A stretch of 64,000 bases of DNA from Fibrobacter sp. (GTDB lineage Bacteria; Fibrobacterota; Fibrobacteria; Fibrobacterales; Fibrobacteraceae): positions 1 through 64,000 of the forward strand of contig JAKSIE010000007.1 in NCBI GenBank assembly GCA_024398995.1. The letters run 5' to 3'. The notes below the pieces were generated by a model. It saw only the letters and a program-made list of their open reading frames with translations, ran no database searches and was not told the origin of the DNA. The position numbers and the translations under genes are program-made. How positions within the stretch are numbered: position 1 is the first letter of the stretch; each line of letters opens with the position of its first letter. Below, piece after piece: positions 5,791 through 40,770 of the stretch.

Positions 5791-5793
5791 TAC

Positions 5794-5877
5794 TGCGGTC
5801 GGACAGACTTGAACTGTCATGGGATCGCTCCCACTAGCACCTCAAGCTAGCGTGTCTACCAATTCCACCACGACCGC
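5794..5877 (-). tRNA. tRNA-Leu(GAG), copy 2
   Basis: Base-for-base the same as 2397-2480 including the discriminator A; CCA is not encoded. No TAnnTTTG promoter is visible just upstream, and the gene lies 91 bases after the secG stop on the same strand, so it is probably co-transcribed with tpiA-secG. Confidence 0.95.
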
Positions 5878-5968
5878 GCGTTCCAACCGGGGCTTTGAAA
5901 CAAGGTTTCTGTGGTCAAAGACCTCTGCCGGATCCGGTTGAACCTTAAAGCTTCGTTAGAAACTTCAA

Positions 5969-12722: not shown

Positions 12723-13340
12723 TTACCCGATCTTCAAAGGCTTCATCTGGATGCCGTCGTGGATCTTTGTGAAGGTGCCGCGGTAGTGCCCTTCGGCGTC
12801 GCGTTTGAATTCAAACTTGGTGACCATGGTGTAGCTGAAAGCGCCTTCGACAAACTGGTCGTCGGGAAGTCCGCAGGCGAAGTGCTGTAGGGCTGCAATC
12901 ACGCCGGCATGGCTGATCCACAGGAATTCACCGTCGTCGTCCAGGGAATCCAAAAGGCTCTGGGCTCGCTTGTCGATATCGTGGAAACATTCTCCGTTGG
13001 GGAACCTGAAACCGCGGAGGTCGTTCTTCCATCCCATCATCTGTTCCTTAGGGACTTCGGTGAGCTTTTGGCCTTCCCAGTCGCCAAAGTTGATCTCGAT
13101 GATTTCGTCGCGCTTTTCCATGGGGAGGCCGGTGGCCTCTGATGCCTTTTCCGCCAGACGGAGGCAGCGCAGCAGCGGGCTGGTGAACATGCGGGTGGGT
13201 TTTGCTCCGGCGGCCATAAGAGCCTTGATGGCTCCTTCACTTTCTTCGGGGAAGGAGGGGGAGACGTCGAAATCCATGCGTCCATAGCAGACGTCGTTGG
13301 GATTGTAAGGCTTGGAGTGGCGGATGGTCCAGAGAATCAT
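12723..13340 (-). CDS. Histidine phosphatase, CobC-like (alpha-ribazole phosphatase type)
   Basis: 205 residues of the phosphoglycerate-mutase superfamily. TIRHSKP at the N-terminus supplies the phosphorylated His, and DVCYGRMDFDVSPSF is the CYGxxD motif typical of alpha-ribazole phosphatase (last steps of cobalamin assembly). Then SPLLRCLRLAE, INFGDWEGQ and WISHAGVIAAL (second catalytic His). The start MILWTIRHS is supported by family length and because the longer frame runs through the RNA gene at 13390-13491. No other cobalamin genes are in the window, so substrate is uncertain. TATCTTTG (13345-13352) lies 4 bases before ATG. Confidence 0.8.
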   Translation of the reverse strand: MILWTIRHSKPYNPNDVCYGRMDFDVSPSFPEESEGAIKALMAAGAKPTRMFTSPLLRCLRLAEKASEATGLPMEKRDEIIEINFGDWEGQKLTEVPKEQMMGWKNDLRGFRFPNGECFHDIDKRAQSLLDSLDDDGEFLWISHAGVIAALQHFACGLPDDQFVEGAFSYTMVTKFEFKRDAEGHYRGTFTKIHDGIQMKPLKIG

Positions 13341-13344
13341 GGCC

Positions 13345-13352
13345 CAAAGATA
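13345..13352 (-). promoter_or_regulatory. Likely -10 box of the CobC-like gene
   Basis: TATCTTTG on the minus strand with only GGCC between it and the ATG; no Shine-Dalgarno. It lies just past the small-RNA terminator. Confidence 0.5.
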
Positions 13353-13390
13353 AAAAAATAACCCGCGGTTTAATTCCGACGGGTTAATCA
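13353..13390 (-). terminator. Terminator behind the small RNA
   Basis: AACCCGTCGG pairs with CCGCGGGTT (one bulge) and is followed by ATTTTTTTAT on the minus strand. A first T8 run directly follows the RNA's closing stem. Confidence 0.7.
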
Positions 13391-13491
13391 AAAAAAATCC
13401 TAGGCTACCTGAGCACATAAAAATTCGCAAGTCCGTTGCTGCTTTCGCCCTGGCGATTTGCCCACAAATAGTCATTGCGCAGGGCCTAGGA
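13390..13491 (-). ncRNA. ffs: Bacterial SRP RNA (4.5S-like)
   Basis: About 100 bases on the minus strand. Closing stem TCCTAGGC/GCCTAGGA (13484-13491 with 13398-13405), then CCTG/CAGG and CGCAA/TTGCG. The apical part reads CCAGG-GC-GAAA-GC-AGCAACGG, which carries the CAGG...AGCA symmetric-loop pair of SRP domain IV on a GNRA loop, and the 3' arm GTGCTCAGGTAGCCT resembles the usual 4.5S 3' arm. T8 follows. Promoter TTGGCA-N17-TATAAT lies directly upstream. The apical helix is one pair shorter than the usual three, so the identity is probable, not certain. Confidence 0.65.
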
Positions 13492-13497
13492 CTGCAA

Positions 13498-13526
13498 ATT
13501 ATAGCTTAATTCCGGTTTTTTGCCAA
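13498..13526 (-). promoter_or_regulatory. Promoter of the SRP-like RNA
   Basis: Minus strand TTGGCA (13521-13526), 17 bases, TATAAT (13498-13503) running into TTG. The best sigma-70-like match in the window; the transcript would start near 13491. Confidence 0.75.
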
Positions 13527-13842: not shown

Positions 13843-16800
13843 ATGTTGGTTGGTAAGAATTTGATTAAGAAGTTGGTTGGCTCCTTGGCCACCGTGTTGG
13901 CTTTTGCAGTTCCTTCTTTGGCTGCAGACGTAAGGCCTTTGTATTTTGAAGGAATTAGTGAAGATCTCAAGGTTCAGCAGGATTTCTGGGATTCCTTGAT
14001 GCAGTTCAAGATGTATGGTGCTGAAGGCATTGAATTCGTTGAGGGTGGTAATATCCATATTACCGACACCCTAGGTCGCTTTGGTACATCTAGAGGTGAC
14101 TTCGTTATTATTGGCGATAACAACGAAGTGGGTGGTCCAATTCTTGTTGGCGGTGATATCCAAATCAATGGTGGTGGTAAGGACGTTTTCATGACTGGTC
14201 CTACCCGTGTTTCTAAAAGCATTATTGTCAAGAACAACCAGTTGAACAGCGTTGGACAGAATTTTTTCCATGGCCCTACATGCGTTAGTGGAAGTGTTAG
14301 TTCTGCTTTTAGCGACGGGGTTGCGCCGCAGAATCAGTTTTTTGGGACTAATTACGCTAGTTGCCCTGATTCGGTACCGAACTTTATGGATGGCTTAAAG
14401 GTTCCGTCTTCTCCGGATGCGGTACCGGCTGGCAAGCCCGTCCTTTCGGACATTAACGAAAGCAATAAAGTATTTAACATTGACATTCCCGCAGAAACTC
14501 CGGGTGACTCGGGCTTGTATGACATTTACATCAATAACATTACCTTGACCAACCAGGGTGCCCTGGCAATTCGTATGCCAGAAGGCGGACGTTTGACCCG
14601 TATTTTCGTTAATTCCTTGTCTATTGGATCTCAGTCTACAATTCAGGTGTACTATAAGAATAAGACTGGCGAGAACGGTGGTTATACTGCGGTTGAAAAC
14701 GAAAAGTATGCCGGCGACCTGCTCTTCTATGTAAACAGCGACCTTAATTTGACCGCTCGCGACAATGGCAAGACCATTCAGGGAACATTCATTTCTAGCG
14801 GTACAATCAGCGTGAAACAGCAGCTGACCCTCGCTGGCCAGTTGCTTGCTAAGAAACTGCTCATTGCTGCAAACTTTGATGGCTCTAGCTTCTTCTTCAA
14901 GTCTTTCGATTCTCAAACTTTCAAGGTCCCGGAGACTAGCGTTCTCGATACTCTTTATGAATCTAAAATATGGGATAACGTGGAACAGCGCATAGACGTG
15001 CGATTGACCGGTGCTCCCTCGAATCCAGTTACTTTCCATTACTGCTTCGTCTTCCCTGGCAAGGCCGATGCCGATATGTCTACTGGCAATTTTGAAGCAA
15101 GTGAAGAAGATATTTACACATCCAATGTTCCTTTGTGCAATCGTGGTGGTACCCCTGGTTCTGCAAGGTTCCTTGCTGGTAGGGATACCTTGGAAAATCC
15201 CATTACATTGAAGATCAAGGATGATATTCTTCTTGAAAATGAGGAATACTTCTATATTCGAATTTTCGATGTTGCCGGTGCACGAGTTTCCAAGGATTCT
15301 CTGGTGACATCTATGGACTTTAAACTTCTTATTGTGGATGACGATAAGACTCCGGTTTGCCATGATACTACGATTACGATTCAGGAAGACGAACCGTTCT
15401 ATTTGGTTGGCGCCGATGCAATCGGTGTTCCGTATAATTACGTTCCTGCCTATGCCCATGATGGTAAAACCCTGCTGACTACGTATTATCAGGTTCCTAT
15501 TCTTGAAACTCCGGAACATGGGTTGTACATCAATGGTGAAGCTGTCAAGGCGGATTCTATAAAGTATAGGCCTATTCCGCAAAATATTTTGCCTTCCGCC
15601 CTTTATACTCCGGGCAAAAATGAATACAGTGTGGCAGGCGGTCATTATGATTCCCTTGTTTTTGCAATTGAAATCAATTCTATAGATGGAAAGAGAGGAA
15701 CCTACTCTGATCCCTGTAAGATGTACATTGACGTAACTCCGGTGAATGACAAGCCGGTGCTGAACGATACCACCATCACCATCCGCGAAAACACTCCCGT
15801 AGATTCTGTCATTTTGCAACTCGTTGCATTCGATGTCGAAAATGACAAACTGATTTACTCCATCGATTCCGGTGCAACCACTTTGTTTGACCTCAAGGGC
15901 GCTGTGAATGACTCCCTGTATGTAAAGGCTAAACTGGATTACGAAACCGCCCAGCAGCATGTGCTTAAGGTTATTGTTACTGAGAAGAGAACCGATGGCC
16001 AGCCTGCATTGAAGGATACTGCCTACGTTACCATCAAGCTCATTGATGAAAATGAAGAACCGAAGTTTGACAAGAGTTCTTATGAATTTACCGTGAGGGA
16101 ACATGCTCCCTACGACTCTATCTTCGGTACAATCCATGCAATTGATCCGGATTCCATTGCTGTGGACGGTTCCTTCAACAAGATCCGCTACACTTACAAG
16201 CTTGAAACTCCGGCCAAGGAAGACGGTGCGTTCTGGCTTAGTGATTTGACTGGAAACTTTGCTGCGGGCGATACTGCAACAAAGAACTCCGATTCCCTGA
16301 ACTACGAAAAGACCGACAAGTACGTTCTTTGGGCTTATGCAACCGATGCCAAGGGTCTGTATGACTCTGCCAAGGTTACCATTATCGTTGAAGATATTAA
16401 CGAAGACCCGTCCTTTGAGCAGGATAAGTTCTACTACAAGGAACATTTCGTTAAAGTTCCTGAAATTACTGAAAACGGCGATCTCCTGACTTTCAATTTC
16501 AGTGATCCGGATATTAAGAGCGCTTGGGCTACAAATGGCTTCCATAAGCTGCAGCTTAAGCTGCTGGATTGCACGCTGGATGCTTGCAACCTTGGTAATG
16601 CCAAGGAAATCGACGCCAATGTATCCTCGATTTTCAGCGTCAAGATGAATGCTGATAGTACCAGCGGTGTGCTTAGCCTTGTTAAGGCCTCTGCTCTTGA
16701 CTACGAAACTGATTCCACTTATAATATGATGGTGGAAGTTCGCGATAACGTGGGCAGTGCACCGTCTCTTGTGGATACAATCATGATCCGTGTTCGCGTT

Positions 16801-19800
16801 ACCAACGTGAATGAGCCGCCCAAGTTCGATTCTACCAAGTACACCTTCAGCGTCAAGGAACATCAGCCTAAGGAAACTGAAGTTGGCAAGGTTCACGCTA
16901 CTGATGTAGATGCAAAAACAACTCTGTCCTACTCCTTTGCTGGTGGTGCTTTGGTTGACGCCTCCAAGATGTTCTCCATCGATCCGGAAACAGGCTTGAT
17001 TGTTACTGCCGGTGAACTAGATTACGAAACAAAGGATTCTTACAGTTTCAAGGTTTATGTCTCTGATAATGATGCTGAAAAGCCTTTGATGGATTCTGTC
17101 CCGGTAACTGTCAAGGTTCTTGATATCAATGAAAGACCATGGGCTGATGATTTGAAGATTACCTTGAGCGAAGACGCTGCAGTTGATTCTGTTTTTGGTT
17201 CCGTTATTGGCCATGATCTGGATGCTGATACCAACAAGCTTTCCTTCTCTTGGGTAGACCTCAGTGAAGATGAAGCTAAACTCTTCAAAATTTCCACTGA
17301 TGGTAAGATTTCCTTGCTTGATACCGTGGACTATGAAACCAAGAAGTCCTATGAACTGACCGTGAAGGTTGTTGATAATGGTAAGCCCGGCTTGGATTCT
17401 ACCGCCAAGGTTTATATTACCGTGATCAATGTGAATGAACCTCCCGAAGTTGCTGATCTTGAAATCACTATTCCGGAAAACACTCCTGATATGGAACAAA
17501 TCGGAGCCTTTGTGGTGAAGGATCCGGAAAATGGCAAGGAATTTGAATTTGTCACCCTCACAGGAACTCCGAATAAAGATGATATTTTTGTTGATGATGT
17601 AACAGGTGATGTTTATGTTGCTGGAAATTTGGATTACGAAACCAAGCCTGAGTATGTGTATACAGTAAGAGTTTACGATTACGATCAGCCGAGGCAGAGT
17701 ACTACTGCGAAGCTTATCGTCCATGTGACCAACGTGAATGAACCTCCGAAGTTTGACAGAAAGAAGAGAATTTTCAGCATCAAGGAATTGAATGAGGCAA
17801 ACGCTCTTGTTGGTACAGTCATTGCTTCTGATGAAGACGGCGACAAGCTGGAATACTCCATTGTTGCAGATACTAGCGGCCTCTTCAGCATGGACAAAAA
17901 TGACGGTAAAATTCGGGTGCCCGTGAAGGATACTTTGGATTATGAAATCGTAGATGGTGGTGAAACCCCTCCTGTTTACTATGTCAAGGTCAAGGTTTCC
18001 GATGGCGTTCTGTGGGATACCATGACGGTGCGCATTAATGTTCTCGATGTCAATGAACCGCCTCATTTGGAAAATACATCATTTGATGTTCTTGAACAAA
18101 AGAAATATTCCTTTGGAACTCTTGTTGGCAATGATGTTGACTATGGCGATAACGAAATCTTGAGCTATAGAATTCTCACTGAAACAGATGAAGAGAAGGC
18201 TGTTGCTAAGTTGTTCAATGTGTCCGCCAATGGCGTCGTAAGTACCACGGCTGAATTGAATTTTGAGGATCTAGAGGCTCAGGACTTTAAGTACACCTTT
18301 AGGGTTGAGGTTTCTGATGGTGATCTCGACCTTGGCTTCCTTGCTGATACAGCTACAATCACCATTAATGTGATTGATGTTAATGAAACTCCGAAGGTTT
18401 ATAACCATACATTCAAGGTTTCTGAAATGGCTAAAGCCAGGACCTCTGTTGGTTCAATTACCAAGTGGGAGGACCCGGATCTTGATGGTACTGATAATCA
18501 TGCGGTGACTTTCAGCATATCCGATACAATTGTCGGTGGTGTTCAGACCGACGCTACCAAGAACTTCGTAATTAACTCCACAACAGGCAAGATTACTGTT
18601 GCTCAAGGTGCTGTGTTTGATTACGAAACAGTTAGCAAGGTGTACTATCTTAAGGTCACTGTTAAGGACCATGGCGATCCCTCTTTGAGCGCCTCTGCCT
18701 TGGTGACTATCAATGTTGTTGATGAACCGGAACCGCCGGAAATTGAAAACAAGACTCCGAATTTTACTGTGGAAGAAAATTCTCCGGTAGATACTGAAAT
18801 TGGAAAAATCGTTGTTCATGACAAGGATGAAAATGAGTCCTTTATGTTCAGCTTGATTGATACTAGTGGTTTCTTCAAAATCTCTTACGTTGATAGTATC
18901 GCTACAATTAAGGTTAGGAGCGGTGCAAAATTGGACTATGAAAATGTCGCAAAGTATGAAGTAAAGGTTGTTGTCCAAGACAAGGATAGTGAAACTGATA
19001 CAGCCGTGGTGACCATTGACGTTATTGACGTGAACGAAAAGCCCACCATGGAAGAACAGTTCTTTGAACTGTTTGAAAACAGCGGCGCAAATTACAAGCT
19101 GGATGGAACTATCCAATCTGGTGACTTGGATACCGCCTCTGCATTCACCAAGAACTTCTACGAAGGTGTGGGTGGCGATACCGCTCTGTTCACCGTGAAC
19201 AGCCGTGGCGAAATCTTTGCCAACTACGACATGGACTACGAAGAATACAAGGCCAAGAACAAGACCACCTTTGTTGTGAAGGTTAAGGTTCAGGACCAGA
19301 AGATCGATACTCTGTTCGTTGTTGAAAATATCCACATCGACCTGAAGAACGTCAATGAAAATCCGGAAGTTCTCACAGACACCCTGTATGCTTCCGAAGA
19401 TGCCAAGGCTGGTACCGAGATTGGTTTGCTGGACGCCAAGGATCCGGATGGCCCGACCACCTTCACTTACACCTTGGTTCGTGCCTCTAGGCAGTTCGAT
19501 GTGGATCCTGATGGTTCTGTGACTGTTAAGACAGACGACATTCTGGACTACGAAACCAAGGATCATGCGTACACTATTTATGTGAACGTTCAGGATGCTG
19601 ATGGCGGAGTCTCTGAAACCAAGCCTGTGGTTATCATCGTTTCCGACGTAAACGAACCGCCGACTCTGCGTGATACTACCATCTACATTCGTGAAGATGC
19701 TTCTGTGGATACGATCTTCGCTAAGATCTTCGGCTCTGATCCGGATATCTTCACCGAAGAATTTAACCAGCTGTCTTACGAATTGCTCTCAGCCAAGGAC

Positions 19801-22023
19801 ACCTTCGACATTCTGCCCGATGGTTCTGTAAAGCTGCTGCGTCGCCTGGACTACGAAGCTGATTCCCTGTATGAACGTGTTGTCCGCGTTACCGACGGTA
19901 CCTTCTTTGATACAGCAAACGTAATCATCAAGGTGGTTGACGTGATTGAATCTACTGTGGTAGAAATCGTTAAGGTGGACGACCCTGATTCTACCTGGAA
20001 TTACCCGGATACCATTTTCACCAACATTCCGAACAAGTCCATAGACTGGTTGCGTGAAGACAAGATCTTTAACTTCGACACAACCTTGGTTGAAGGTCCC
20101 AATGTCATCAAGAGATGCTACTGGAATCGTACCAAGAATTATGAAGGCTGCGACAGCGTTATTATCTATTACAGCAACGCAACGCCAGTTGTCAAGATCT
20201 ATAGCGATCCTGCAGATGTCTCCGCCGATAACGTTTACACCATCGTTGAGGATGTTGATGCTGCTGATACTAACTACTATGTGAACTCCACTGAAAAGAA
20301 GATTACCGTTTCTGTGACGGATACTGCTGCCGGTGTCAAGAAGAAGTTTGATATCAACCTTGAACTGGATACGGTCGGCGTTCCGGAAAAGACTCTGAAT
20401 ACAGTAAACGAAATCACCAAGGAAAAGGTAACTCTCCGTGACGGTAGCGACGTGGAAGTGGTCAAGACTCCGGTTAACGGTGAAAAGATTGTTGTCTCCT
20501 ACATGGATACTGTAACTGTCAATGGTGAACCGATGGTAGTGAAGGTTTCTTACGATACCGACTCCAAGGGCAATGAAACCAAGGTCGCCGTAATCAATGA
20601 GAAGGGTAAGGTGGATTCCATTCAGGTGATCACTGTTACCTACACCACATTGATTGATGGCAAGGAAATGATGGTTTCCTATAAGGCTGATGCTATTACC
20701 GGTGAAGTGCTGAACACTACCGCTGGCGGCCAGTTGACCAAGGCTGACAACAACAACGATGTTGCAACCGCCCAGGATGCTGTGGGTACCTTCTCCGTAT
20801 CTTACAACTACGTGGACCATGGCAATGCTGTTACTGTGAATTATGTTGTTGATGAAAAGGGTGAGATTGTGACCAACGAAGATGGCGACATCGGTTACTC
20901 CGTATCTTACTCCTACACCAACAAGTTCGGTAACACTGCAACGAAGTCCGTGTTCATCGTTCTTGATACGGTTGGTCCCAAGGTTGAAATTCTCTATCCT
21001 GTGAAGGGTAAGAAGACTGAGGTGGTTACTTCCAACTTCATCAACGTGAAGTGGACCGTCAATGGTGAAAAGCAGGATACCCTGACTACCCAGGGCCTTG
21101 AAAAGGGGCTGAACGCCATTGTCCGCTTCTACCGTGACAAGGCTGGCAACGAAGCTTCTGATACCGTATTCGTCTACATGAAGAACGGCAAGAACATCGA
21201 AATTGCTGTGGAACAGCCGGTTACCGAAATTACCCGCGAAAAGGTTGAGGAATACTACTCCAAGAATGAACCTGTGGAAGGTCAGACATTTGCTGTTAGC
21301 ATCATGAACCCCACCTCTGGTCAGGAATACGAAACCCAGAGAGGCGGAAAGAACATTAAGGATGAAGCCGATACTAAGGGCAGCGGCGACGCTCCGTATC
21401 CTGGCTTGGAAGGCCATCTCGGTCCTACCTTGGCTTTGGATATCAAGCTGCCTGTAGTTCGCCAGACTAACGAAAATGCTCAGATGGACGGCTTGTCCAC
21501 CGGTACTATCAGCGGTCTTGCTACCTTAGACGATATCGTGAACTCCGAAGGCCTTATCTCCCTGGATGGTGTGGACGCCAACAACGGCGAAAAGCTCACC
21601 GTGGATGAATACGTGAAGGAATACTGCGTTGAAGGTTTCAATGTGGGCTCCGATCTTAGTAGGGAAAACCTGTACTACACCAAGGCTAACGTGAAGATTT
21701 GGGTTTACACCACTACGGGCGAATTCGTCAACTACTACAACTTCAACCAGAAGCTCAACGATCCTGACTACACCAACGAAGCTGGTATGACAAGGTTGTT
21801 CTTCGAAATGAAGCCCGATGCAAATGGCGACGTTCGTAACGATGCTGGTCGACTGATTGGTACTGGATCTTACATTTACAAGGTCGAAGTCAAGATCCGC
21901 TCCGAACTGAAGTGCTCCTTGCCGCCGGTTATGGATGCCTCCAGCCCGAAGAAGGGTGACGTCATCCGTAACGACGAAGACTTGCTGAAGTCCTTCGGTT
22001 ACAAGCGTCCGGCACTGAAGTAA
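13843..22023 (+). CDS. Giant secreted cadherin-repeat protein
   Basis: 2726 residues. GGAGATGG precedes the ATG. Signal peptide about 1-28 (VLAFAVPSLAA). Residues about 30-370 form a beta-rich head with repeated strand phrases (GDIQINGG, IQGTFISSGTISVKQQLTLAGQLLAKKLLIAANFDG). About 375-505 read as a Calx-beta-type domain (DDILLENEEYFYIRIFDVAGA...LLIVDDD). From about 630 to 2060 there are roughly 13 cadherin-like repeats of about 95-110 residues, each with LDYET near the middle and ending in DVNEPP or a variant, the calcium-binding linker. Then further Ig-like segments and a C-terminal FlgD/secretion-type fold (ANVKIWVYTTTGEFVNYY...GTGSYIYKVEVK). Likely cell-surface adhesin or matrix protein, calcium-stiffened; partner unknown. 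Confidence 0.85.
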   Translation: MLVGKNLIKKLVGSLATVLAFAVPSLAADVRPLYFEGISEDLKVQQDFWDSLMQFKMYGAEGIEFVEGGNIHITDTLGRFGTSRGDFVIIGDNNEVGGPILVGGDIQINGGGKDVFMTGPTRVSKSIIVKNNQLNSVGQNFFHGPTCVSGSVSSAFSDGVAPQNQFFGTNYASCPDSVPNFMDGLKVPSSPDAVPAGKPVLSDINESNKVFNIDIPAETPGDSGLYDIYINNITLTNQGALAIRMPEGGRLTRIFVNSLSIGSQSTIQVYYKNKTGENGGYTAVENEKYAGDLLFYVNSDLNLTARDNGKTIQGTFISSGTISVKQQLTLAGQLLAKKLLIAANFDGSSFFFKSFDSQTFKVPETSVLDTLYESKIWDNVEQRIDVRLTGAPSNPVTFHYCFVFPGKADADMSTGNFEASEEDIYTSNVPLCNRGGTPGSARFLAGRDTLENPITLKIKDDILLENEEYFYIRIFDVAGARVSKDSLVTSMDFKLLIVDDDKTPVCHDTTITIQEDEPFYLVGADAIGVPYNYVPAYAHDGKTLLTTYYQVPILETPEHGLYINGEAVKADSIKYRPIPQNILPSALYTPGKNEYSVAGGHYDSLVFAIEINSIDGKRGTYSDPCKMYIDVTPVNDKPVLNDTTITIRENTPVDSVILQLVAFDVENDKLIYSIDSGATTLFDLKGAVNDSLYVKAKLDYETAQQHVLKVIVTEKRTDGQPALKDTAYVTIKLIDENEEPKFDKSSYEFTVREHAPYDSIFGTIHAIDPDSIAVDGSFNKIRYTYKLETPAKEDGAFWLSDLTGNFAAGDTATKNSDSLNYEKTDKYVLWAYATDAKGLYDSAKVTIIVEDINEDPSFEQDKFYYKEHFVKVPEITENGDLLTFNFSDPDIKSAWATNGFHKLQLKLLDCTLDACNLGNAKEIDANVSSIFSVKMNADSTSGVLSLVKASALDYETDSTYNMMVEVRDNVGSAPSLVDTIMIRVRVTNVNEPPKFDSTKYTFSVKEHQPKETEVGKVHATDVDAKTTLSYSFAGGALVDASKMFSIDPETGLIVTAGELDYETKDSYSFKVYVSDNDAEKPLMDSVPVTVKVLDINERPWADDLKITLSEDAAVDSVFGSVIGHDLDADTNKLSFSWVDLSEDEAKLFKISTDGKISLLDTVDYETKKSYELTVKVVDNGKPGLDSTAKVYITVINVNEPPEVADLEITIPENTPDMEQIGAFVVKDPENGKEFEFVTLTGTPNKDDIFVDDVTGDVYVAGNLDYETKPEYVYTVRVYDYDQPRQSTTAKLIVHVTNVNEPPKFDRKKRIFSIKELNEANALVGTVIASDEDGDKLEYSIVADTSGLFSMDKNDGKIRVPVKDTLDYEIVDGGETPPVYYVKVKVSDGVLWDTMTVRINVLDVNEPPHLENTSFDVLEQKKYSFGTLVGNDVDYGDNEILSYRILTETDEEKAVAKLFNVSANGVVSTTAELNFEDLEAQDFKYTFRVEVSDGDLDLGFLADTATITINVIDVNETPKVYNHTFKVSEMAKARTSVGSITKWEDPDLDGTDNHAVTFSISDTIVGGVQTDATKNFVINSTTGKITVAQGAVFDYETVSKVYYLKVTVKDHGDPSLSASALVTINVVDEPEPPEIENKTPNFTVEENSPVDTEIGKIVVHDKDENESFMFSLIDTSGFFKISYVDSIATIKVRSGAKLDYENVAKYEVKVVVQDKDSETDTAVVTIDVIDVNEKPTMEEQFFELFENSGANYKLDGTIQSGDLDTASAFTKNFYEGVGGDTALFTVNSRGEIFANYDMDYEEYKAKNKTTFVVKVKVQDQKIDTLFVVENIHIDLKNVNENPEVLTDTLYASEDAKAGTEIGLLDAKDPDGPTTFTYTLVRASRQFDVDPDGSVTVKTDDILDYETKDHAYTIYVNVQDADGGVSETKPVVIIVSDVNEPPTLRDTTIYIREDASVDTIFAKIFGSDPDIFTEEFNQLSYELLSAKDTFDILPDGSVKLLRRLDYEADSLYERVVRVTDGTFFDTANVIIKVVDVIESTVVEIVKVDDPDSTWNYPDTIFTNIPNKSIDWLREDKIFNFDTTLVEGPNVIKRCYWNRTKNYEGCDSVIIYYSNATPVVKIYSDPADVSADNVYTIVEDVDAADTNYYVNSTEKKITVSVTDTAAGVKKKFDINLELDTVGVPEKTLNTVNEITKEKVTLRDGSDVEVVKTPVNGEKIVVSYMDTVTVNGEPMVVKVSYDTDSKGNETKVAVINEKGKVDSIQVITVTYTTLIDGKEMMVSYKADAITGEVLNTTAGGQLTKADNNNDVATAQDAVGTFSVSYNYVDHGNAVTVNYVVDEKGEIVTNEDGDIGYSVSYSYTNKFGNTATKSVFIVLDTVGPKVEILYPVKGKKTEVVTSNFINVKWTVNGEKQDTLTTQGLEKGLNAIVRFYRDKAGNEASDTVFVYMKNGKNIEIAVEQPVTEITREKVEEYYSKNEPVEGQTFAVSIMNPTSGQEYETQRGGKNIKDEADTKGSGDAPYPGLEGHLGPTLALDIKLPVVRQTNENAQMDGLSTGTISGLATLDDIVNSEGLISLDGVDANNGEKLTVDEYVKEYCVEGFNVGSDLSRENLYYTKANVKIWVYTTTGEFVNYYNFNQKLNDPDYTNEAGMTRLFFEMKPDANGDVRNDAGRLIGTGSYIYKVEVKIRSELKCSLPPVMDASSPKKGDVIRNDEDLLKSFGYKRPALK

Positions 22024-40519: not shown

Positions 40520-40770
40520 AACGCCTCTTTGGAAATGAAATTCTCCCTGCCTCAAGGGCCGTAGCTCACCGGAATTGGTGCAAGCGAGAGAATCAAGCGG
40601 AAAAAAAATAAACACCCATTGAATAGGAGCAAAGGGCGAAAATTTGAAAAATTTTGGCGAATTTTGCCTAAAAACGGCGATTTCTTTACGTTTTGTGTAA
40701 AAACAACCTTTTTTGAAGTTTTTGTTTTACAATTTCTGAAAATGTGTTTTTGCGATAAAAAAGCGCAATT
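40520..40770. other. Purine-gene leader region
   Basis: A 250-base stretch without genes. A+T-rich with imperfect inverted motifs GAAAATTTGAAAAATTTT and GGCGAATTTTGCC. No known riboswitch fold was recognised. Confidence 0.4.

Follow-up and report, generated by a model that had tools for sequence, protein, structure and literature searches.

The closest described relatives of the element studied here, a signal recognition particle (SRP) RNA gene on a 64,000-nucleotide stretch of Fibrobacter sp. DNA (contig JAKSIE010000007.1, positions 1 to 64,000; hereafter the window), are the small bacterial SRP RNAs of Rfam family RF00169 and the 4.5S RNA of Escherichia coli. The Fibrobacter RNA shares with them a single hairpin with an asymmetric and a symmetric loop, a GNRA tip and a terminal stem, but it carries two base pairs in the apical helix where the RF00169 consensus has three, and its tip loop is GAAA where the consensus is GGAA. 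Other departures from the standard form have been described. According to passages of PMC4605306, Basidiomycete SRP RNAs likewise show a lineage-specific change in helix 8, whereas both loops look intact in the Fibrobacter RNA. The chloroplast SRP RNA of Physcomitrella likewise departs from the standard tip, with a loop enlarged to about 10 nt, whereas the Fibrobacter RNA keeps its tetraloop on a shorter helix; swapping the E. coli tetraloop into the Physcomitrella RNA raised its affinity for cpSRP54 6- to 11-fold (passages of PMC5115805). No two-pair tip helix is described in the titles and opening abstracts surveyed, which mostly do not cover subscription journals, so that absence from print is unproven, and the available passages of PMC2905702, PMC5807370 and PMC7775534 make no mention of one.

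The tip of the SRP RNA is the first docking site of FtsY, and its position relative to the Ffh site, in distance and in rotation, is readily taken for granted. A lineage-stable deletion of one pair, recurring elsewhere, would be a natural experiment on how strict SRP geometry has to be.

The locus encodes an ordinary small SRP RNA with a two-pair tip

The features that define the gene are the following.

13395-13491, minus strand: SRP RNA, from the RF00169 match (the sole match) and the minimum-energy fold
13449-13452, minus strand: 5' strand of the symmetric loop, CAGG, from the sequence; invariant in 20 aligned sequences
13441-13448, minus strand: apical hairpin, pairs G13448-C13441 and C13447-G13442 closing the GAAA loop (13446-13443), from the sequence, an alignment gap and covariation
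13437-13440, minus strand: 3' strand of the symmetric loop, AGCA, from the sequence; invariant in 20 aligned sequences

The locus encodes an ordinary small SRP RNA (4.5S type) of a Fibrobacter-like genome, with the standard Ffh-binding loops. A covariance-model scan with RF00169, the check proposed by an earlier sequence-only reading that had suggested an SRP RNA, gave 41.9 bits against a gathering cut-off of 40, a narrow pass, with an E-value of 1.3e-5 over the whole window and 1e-7 over a 501-base stretch. The transcript probably runs from about 13390 to 13493. No better SRP RNA gene, which would have undone that identification, was found elsewhere in the assembly (2.82 Mb, 84.7% complete), where this is the only RF00169 match. 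The GAAA tip conforms to the GNRA loop of the family, the symmetric loop is the CAGG/AGCA already picked out from the letters, here read on the minus strand, and the extended single hairpin has conserved pairing in the 20-sequence alignment. The minimum-energy fold of the full RNA reaches -36.3 kcal/mol (z -2.1; 4 of 200 shuffles equally low).

What sets this RNA apart is its tip, which reads CAGG-GC-GAAA-GC-AGCA from 5' to 3' on the minus strand and thus leaves two Watson-Crick pairs between the loop and the symmetric loop. The two-pair (GC/GC) helix proposed by the sequence-only reading holds in three ways: in the letters themselves, in the cmscan alignment, which shows a two-base gap in the window at the three-pair helix of the Rfam consensus, and in the minimum-energy fold, which forms the same two pairs. 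Three pairs are usual in RF00169 and not defining, because other two-pair matches reach 65.6 bits; for the same reason two pairs alone do not account for the low score of 41.9 bits.

The two-pair tip is a real, conserved and covarying helix. In an alignment of 20 two-pair sequences drawn from families f1, f3 and f4 (f1-f13 are our working family labels, and G and L numbers those of genomes and loci), the outer apical pair is G-C in 13 sequences, A-U in 7 and broken in none, while the inner pair is C-G in all 20. Within f4 the outer pair is G-C in G162 and A-U in the remaining rows. Over the whole structure 95.5% of cells are paired, against 80.3% after shuffling (0 of 500 shuffles as high) and 27-41% in slid controls; double changes and the covariation score likewise exceed all 500 shuffles, figures that are inflated by related rows.

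The two-pair form belongs to most of one class of Fibrobacterota

We surveyed 167 genomes of the phylum, whose name, Fibrobacterota, is that used in the sequence-only reading and agrees with the Fibro-purF RNA detected in the window. A sequence pattern for the two-pair tip that demanded a GNRA loop was found in 110, all from f1, f3 and f4, and a three-pair pattern in 35, all from f5 and f7-f13. For the 22 leftover genomes we turned to a covariance model trained on 20 two-pair sequences, scoring 150 candidate places per genome, which recovered ten more: seven two-pair (G041 in f2; G083, G141-G144 and G147 in f1) and three three-pair (G029, G030 and G035). In total 117 genomes have the two-pair form, 38 the three-pair form and none both. 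In the other 12 (G001, G007, G012, G013, G027, G042, G059, G065, G074, G075, G084 and G130), which include the sole f6 genome, no SRP RNA was found with the patterns and the two-pair-based model at 150 places per genome, and the gene may still exist. A search based on Rfam alone gave a match in 114 of the 167.

The two-pair form is thus a trait of most of one class and not, as the sequence-only reading had suggested, of the phylum. It is confined to f1-f4, which belong to a single class; f5, from that same class, has three pairs, as do all remaining families in which an SRP RNA could be read. The comparison with other Fibrobacterota that this reading had called for came out divided, with the short helix in 117 genomes and three pairs in 38. 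When helix length was placed on a tree of Ffh and FtsY from 30 genomes, with states assigned by family (that of G042 not being observed), a single change was enough, with moderate support (83/69).

Several variants were seen along the way. In genus g6 CAGA replaces CAGG in the symmetric loop (L304, L305, L307 and L308, from G141-G144) with AGCA kept, and CAGA also occurs in the three-pair loci L003, L004 and L310. G066 (L033, L034) holds three copies of the SRP tip motif, two of them over the Rfam cut-off, which may be an assembly duplication. The f4 SRP RNAs seem to bear an additional terminal helix, roughly 11 pairs long, past the Rfam match (fold z -2.95 in L047 and -0.72 in L051).

Two-pair tips recur outside the phylum

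We scanned a collection of 84,980 species for two-pair tips whose closing pair is C-G and whose loop is not GAAA, which gave at least 117 stretches. With R1, a covariance model that contains the searched motif itself, 81 of these reached an E-value of 0.01 (38/59 and 43/58), all at the searched tip and 74 of them over the whole model. Sixteen viral stretches bearing a motif of this kind served as a control; five reached the same threshold (L060, L061, L063, L064 and L067), four over the motif region only and one over the whole model, the best at 20.0 bits. Seven partial matches are less sure (L072, L085, L093, L133, L144, L153 and L174), and L120, L139, L155 and L183 look SRP-like by eye and fall short of the threshold. 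By record title the 81 matches comprise 33 bacterial and 48 archaeal loci, the latter mostly from Micrarchaeota and Marsarchaeota, all these counts being lower bounds. The label of L147 (Omnitrophota, counted as archaeal) may be a binning error, its RNA matching the archaeal SRP family, and L111, labelled Gracilibacteria, resembles the cyanobacterial two-pair SRP RNAs.

Rfam models gave an SRP family match at gathering for 17 of 20 loci chosen among these stretches, namely four large bacterial (including L100, from a Micrarchaeota record), two archaeal and eleven RF00169 matches; L072, L139 and L155 had no such match. The top scores were 179.6 bits for a large SRP RNA of Bacillota and 65.6 bits for a small one of Geothrix. 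At least seven bacterial groups are confirmed in this way, Bacillota, Chloroflexi, Acidobacteriota (Holophagae), Deinococcota, Spirochaetota (Treponema), Planctomycetota and cyanobacteria, which together with the archaeal records removes the idea that the short helix is peculiar to this phylum. The form is present in Geothrix limicola Red804 (L181) and Treponema ruminis RU1 (L166), which makes the question of SRP geometry testable in named strains.

In sampled phyla, counting tips that read GUCAGG, then two pairs of which the closing one is C-G around a GNRA loop, then AGCAGC, and dropping other rows as chance matches by that form and not one by one, we found the two-pair tip in 11 of 199 Acidobacteriota, 25 of 111 Deinococcota and 2 of 149 Spirochaetota. 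The Deinococcota tips are 19 UC/GA and 4 CC/GG with GGAA, plus one with GAAA and one with GAGA. The two-pair tip is uncommon in these samples, and it recurs across phyla.

Like the Fibrobacter RNA, those of Holophagae, Trueperaceae, Treponema, Planctomycetota, Bacillota, Chloroflexi, cyanobacteria and Micrarchaeota have two pairs between the GNRA loop and the symmetric loop. The loops seen there are GGAA, in a scan that excluded GAAA, whereas Fibrobacter has GAAA, and six of the 17 Rfam-confirmed loci lie in large bacterial or archaeal SRP RNAs, whereas the Fibrobacter RNA is small. Two-pair forms in such differing backgrounds probably had independent origins.

Among the viral stretches, the contigs IMGVR_UViG_3300030744_000019 (L060:749-831, minus strand) and IMGVR_UViG_3300049215_000772 (L058:6975-7037, plus strand) carry small hairpins laid out like SRP RNA domain IV, with an asymmetric loop, a CAGG/AGCA symmetric loop, a two-pair tip and GGAA, and with tRNA genes nearby. 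RF00169 scores them at 26.6 and 24.1 bits, under the cut-off of 40, and over these short stretches the E-values are 0.0079 and 0.0062. The fold of L060 has a z of -2.2, with 6 of 200 shuffles equally low, and that of L058 is unremarkable (z 0.6). It is possible that they are phage-borne mimics of SRP RNA.

The FtsY-docking tip is probably re-phased by one base pair

The reading that best fits these results, and which we hold to be quite probable, is that of an ordinary SRP RNA whose FtsY-docking tip would be turned and pulled inward by a single base pair. The ancestor of f1-f4 would have lost one apical pair, rather than the other families having gained one. One step of an A-form helix amounts to about 33 degrees and 2.8 Å; the tetraloop on which FtsY docks would be rotated by about 33 degrees and lie about 2.8 Å closer to the Ffh M domain. 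Since the short form is fixed in one lineage and recurs in unrelated ones, the change probably moves the receptor-docking tip and not the Ffh site.

On the SRP RNA, FtsY binds chiefly the tetraloop together with the two pairs next to it (passages of PMC11404819, citing Voigts-Hoffmann 2013). The part left in f1-f4, a GNRA loop on two pairs, would be that same unit, the dropped pair being a spacer, with both Ffh loops kept. Docking is probably retained because the loop and two pairs are what FtsY reportedly recognises. In the early state the FtsY G domain sits on the tetraloop (passages of PMC4737761), and the NG and M domains of Ffh are joined by a long flexible linker (passages of PMC4468861), which would probably absorb the shift.

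FtsY itself was found in all 30 phylum genomes searched, including that of the window. The basic tetraloop patch of E. coli FtsY, K399, R402, K405 and K406 (passages of PMC11404819), reads KRKK in the window's genome, and in an FtsY alignment of 19 f1-f4 genomes, among them G042 with no SRP RNA found, K399 and R402 are present in 19 of 19, and K or R fills position 405 in 18 (Q in the remaining one) and position 406 in all 19. Outside the phylum, 25 of the 27 FtsY sequences from two-pair lineages retain K399.

This conserved patch bears on a competing explanation, in which the tetraloop has become dispensable for FtsY in these bacteria and the helix is decaying. A helix of two pairs is weak, no fold being predicted for the isolated A-U type tip (0 kcal/mol), and two Clostridia with two-pair SRP RNAs (G168 and G169; L245, L246) have an FtsY in which D or M replaces K399. 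A decaying tip would nevertheless be hard to reconcile with an outer pair that covaries and with loops that, wherever listed among the 117 two-pair Fibrobacterota, are GAAA or GAGA, where the pattern demanded GNRA in 110 genomes and not in the seven found by the model. We regard decay as unlikely.

Several points weigh against a re-phased dock. The single origin within the phylum, itself moderately supported, makes protein correlates inseparable from ancestry. The FtsY patch does not discriminate, as three-pair genomes also keep K399 (11/11); R402 is present in 8 of these 11. For two of the whole-structure counts, pairs with both sides changed and further pair types, 103 and 51 of the 500 shuffles respectively did as well. 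According to passages of PMC4737761, the Ffh N domain remains on the ribosome while FtsY occupies the tetraloop, so a shift could be costly. The Ffh of the window's own genome was not found in the 84.7% complete assembly and was judged from relatives, and the case as a whole is built on sequence comparison and published passages. A wider proposal is more tentative: the three-pair spacing between the Ffh and FtsY sites may not be fixed. A one-pair deletion that re-phases the dock may have gone to fixation several times over, in Micrarchaeota as well as in several bacterial phyla, and the early complex of SRP and receptor would then have an alternative geometry and kinetics of its own.

One archaeal genome stands out in its protein complement. 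In the complete genome of Candidatus Micrarchaeum sp. A_DKE (G193, L142), the TIGR00064 model gives an Ffh-like protein and no FtsY over the cut-off, unlike in G194 and G195.

Ffh keeps its ordinary RNA-binding motif

The sequence-only reading had proposed that the shortened helix alters the contact with the Ffh M domain, with compensating changes there. Of 30 phylum genomes searched, 28 yielded an Ffh above the family cut-off, the exceptions being that of the window and G165. At least eight columns of the Ffh alignment set f1-f4 apart from the ten remaining sequences, f5 included; by eye, column 537 lies in the linker region and column 603 in the M domain, which is where such compensation might be sought. 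All eight fall outside GSRxxRIAxGSG, which we take to be the Ffh RNA-binding motif and which is ordinary, and the CAGG/AGCA symmetric loop is intact. The separating columns are confounded by the one common ancestor, and the column followed elsewhere, DTAGRLQ versus DTAGRLH, is mixed in the 27 Ffh sequences of other two-pair lineages (13 Q, 11 H, 3 other), which removes it as a correlate of helix length. We find an altered M-domain contact improbable.

Other protein differences were followed. Column 637, just behind the RNA-binding motif (Q in 16/18 against K or R in 9/10), is unlinked to helix length, being shared by the three-pair f5, and a missing Gly in the finger-loop region is ruled out as a correlate on the same ground. 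Several FtsY columns, among those listed, also part the two-pair from the three-pair sets inside the phylum; the Trp of IPIRWIGxGE occurs in all 19 f1-f4 genomes and in no other row, the other two-pair lineages included. Among the protein changes followed, none tracked helix length outside the phylum.

A further possibility, that an alternative apical fold, CGC-CAGG-GCG, replaces the canonical tip, is very unlikely. The isolated 22-base tip of the window does prefer it (-2.3 kcal/mol), but the full RNA takes the canonical fold. The f3 sequence and every f4 sequence except G162 carry CGCCAGGACG, in which the innermost alternative pair is impossible, and the change from GC to AU preserves the canonical helix. 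Sequencing or assembly error, or a pseudogene, which the score of 41.9 against 40 might suggest, is refuted by the distribution, the same form occurring in 117 of 167 genomes, one of which (G144) is a single contig that is 100% complete.

Promoter, terminator and neighbouring genes

Three further features flank the RNA.

13498-13526, minus strand: sigma-70-type promoter-like site, TTGGCA-17-TATAAT, 11 of 12 matches to consensus
13390-13397, minus strand (A8 on the plus strand): U8 run after the terminal stem, from the sequence by eye and the predicted fold
13360-13386, minus strand: second terminator-like hairpin, then a T-rich stretch (13359-13350), from the predicted fold and by eye

The gene had been credited with its own strong promoter and terminator. 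The near-consensus site fits the promoter; three promoter-like sites are present in a 401-base stretch against 0.7 expected. The terminator is less firm: a rule-based scan around the SRP RNA gene found none, and the stem with U8 and the second hairpin were recognised by eye, the latter folding at -14.1 kcal/mol (z -3.4; 0 of 200 shuffles equally low). Taking the best site of each of 18 f1 sequences scanned, the window included, the -10 box ends 45-47 bases before CAG in 12 sequences, whose sites score 7-11 of 12; in L038, L039, L040, L043, L306 and L307 the best site is not at that spacing, and none of the f3 and f4 loci scanned has a promoter-like site there.

Downstream of the SRP RNA lies an open reading frame (12723-13475, minus strand) whose real start, by eye, is probably MILWTIRHS near 13341; a similar start also follows the SRP RNA in several relatives. 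Another open reading frame adjoining the gene (13843-22023) encodes 2726 amino acids with many cadherin-like repeats, as judged by eye. Elsewhere in the window two copies of tRNA-Leu(GAG) (2394-2487 and 5791-5884, minus strand) are 96% identical over 94 bases and 3.4 kb apart, and a Fibro-purF RNA (RF02974) was detected at 40523-40597 on the minus strand, with 62.5 bits against a cut-off of 60.
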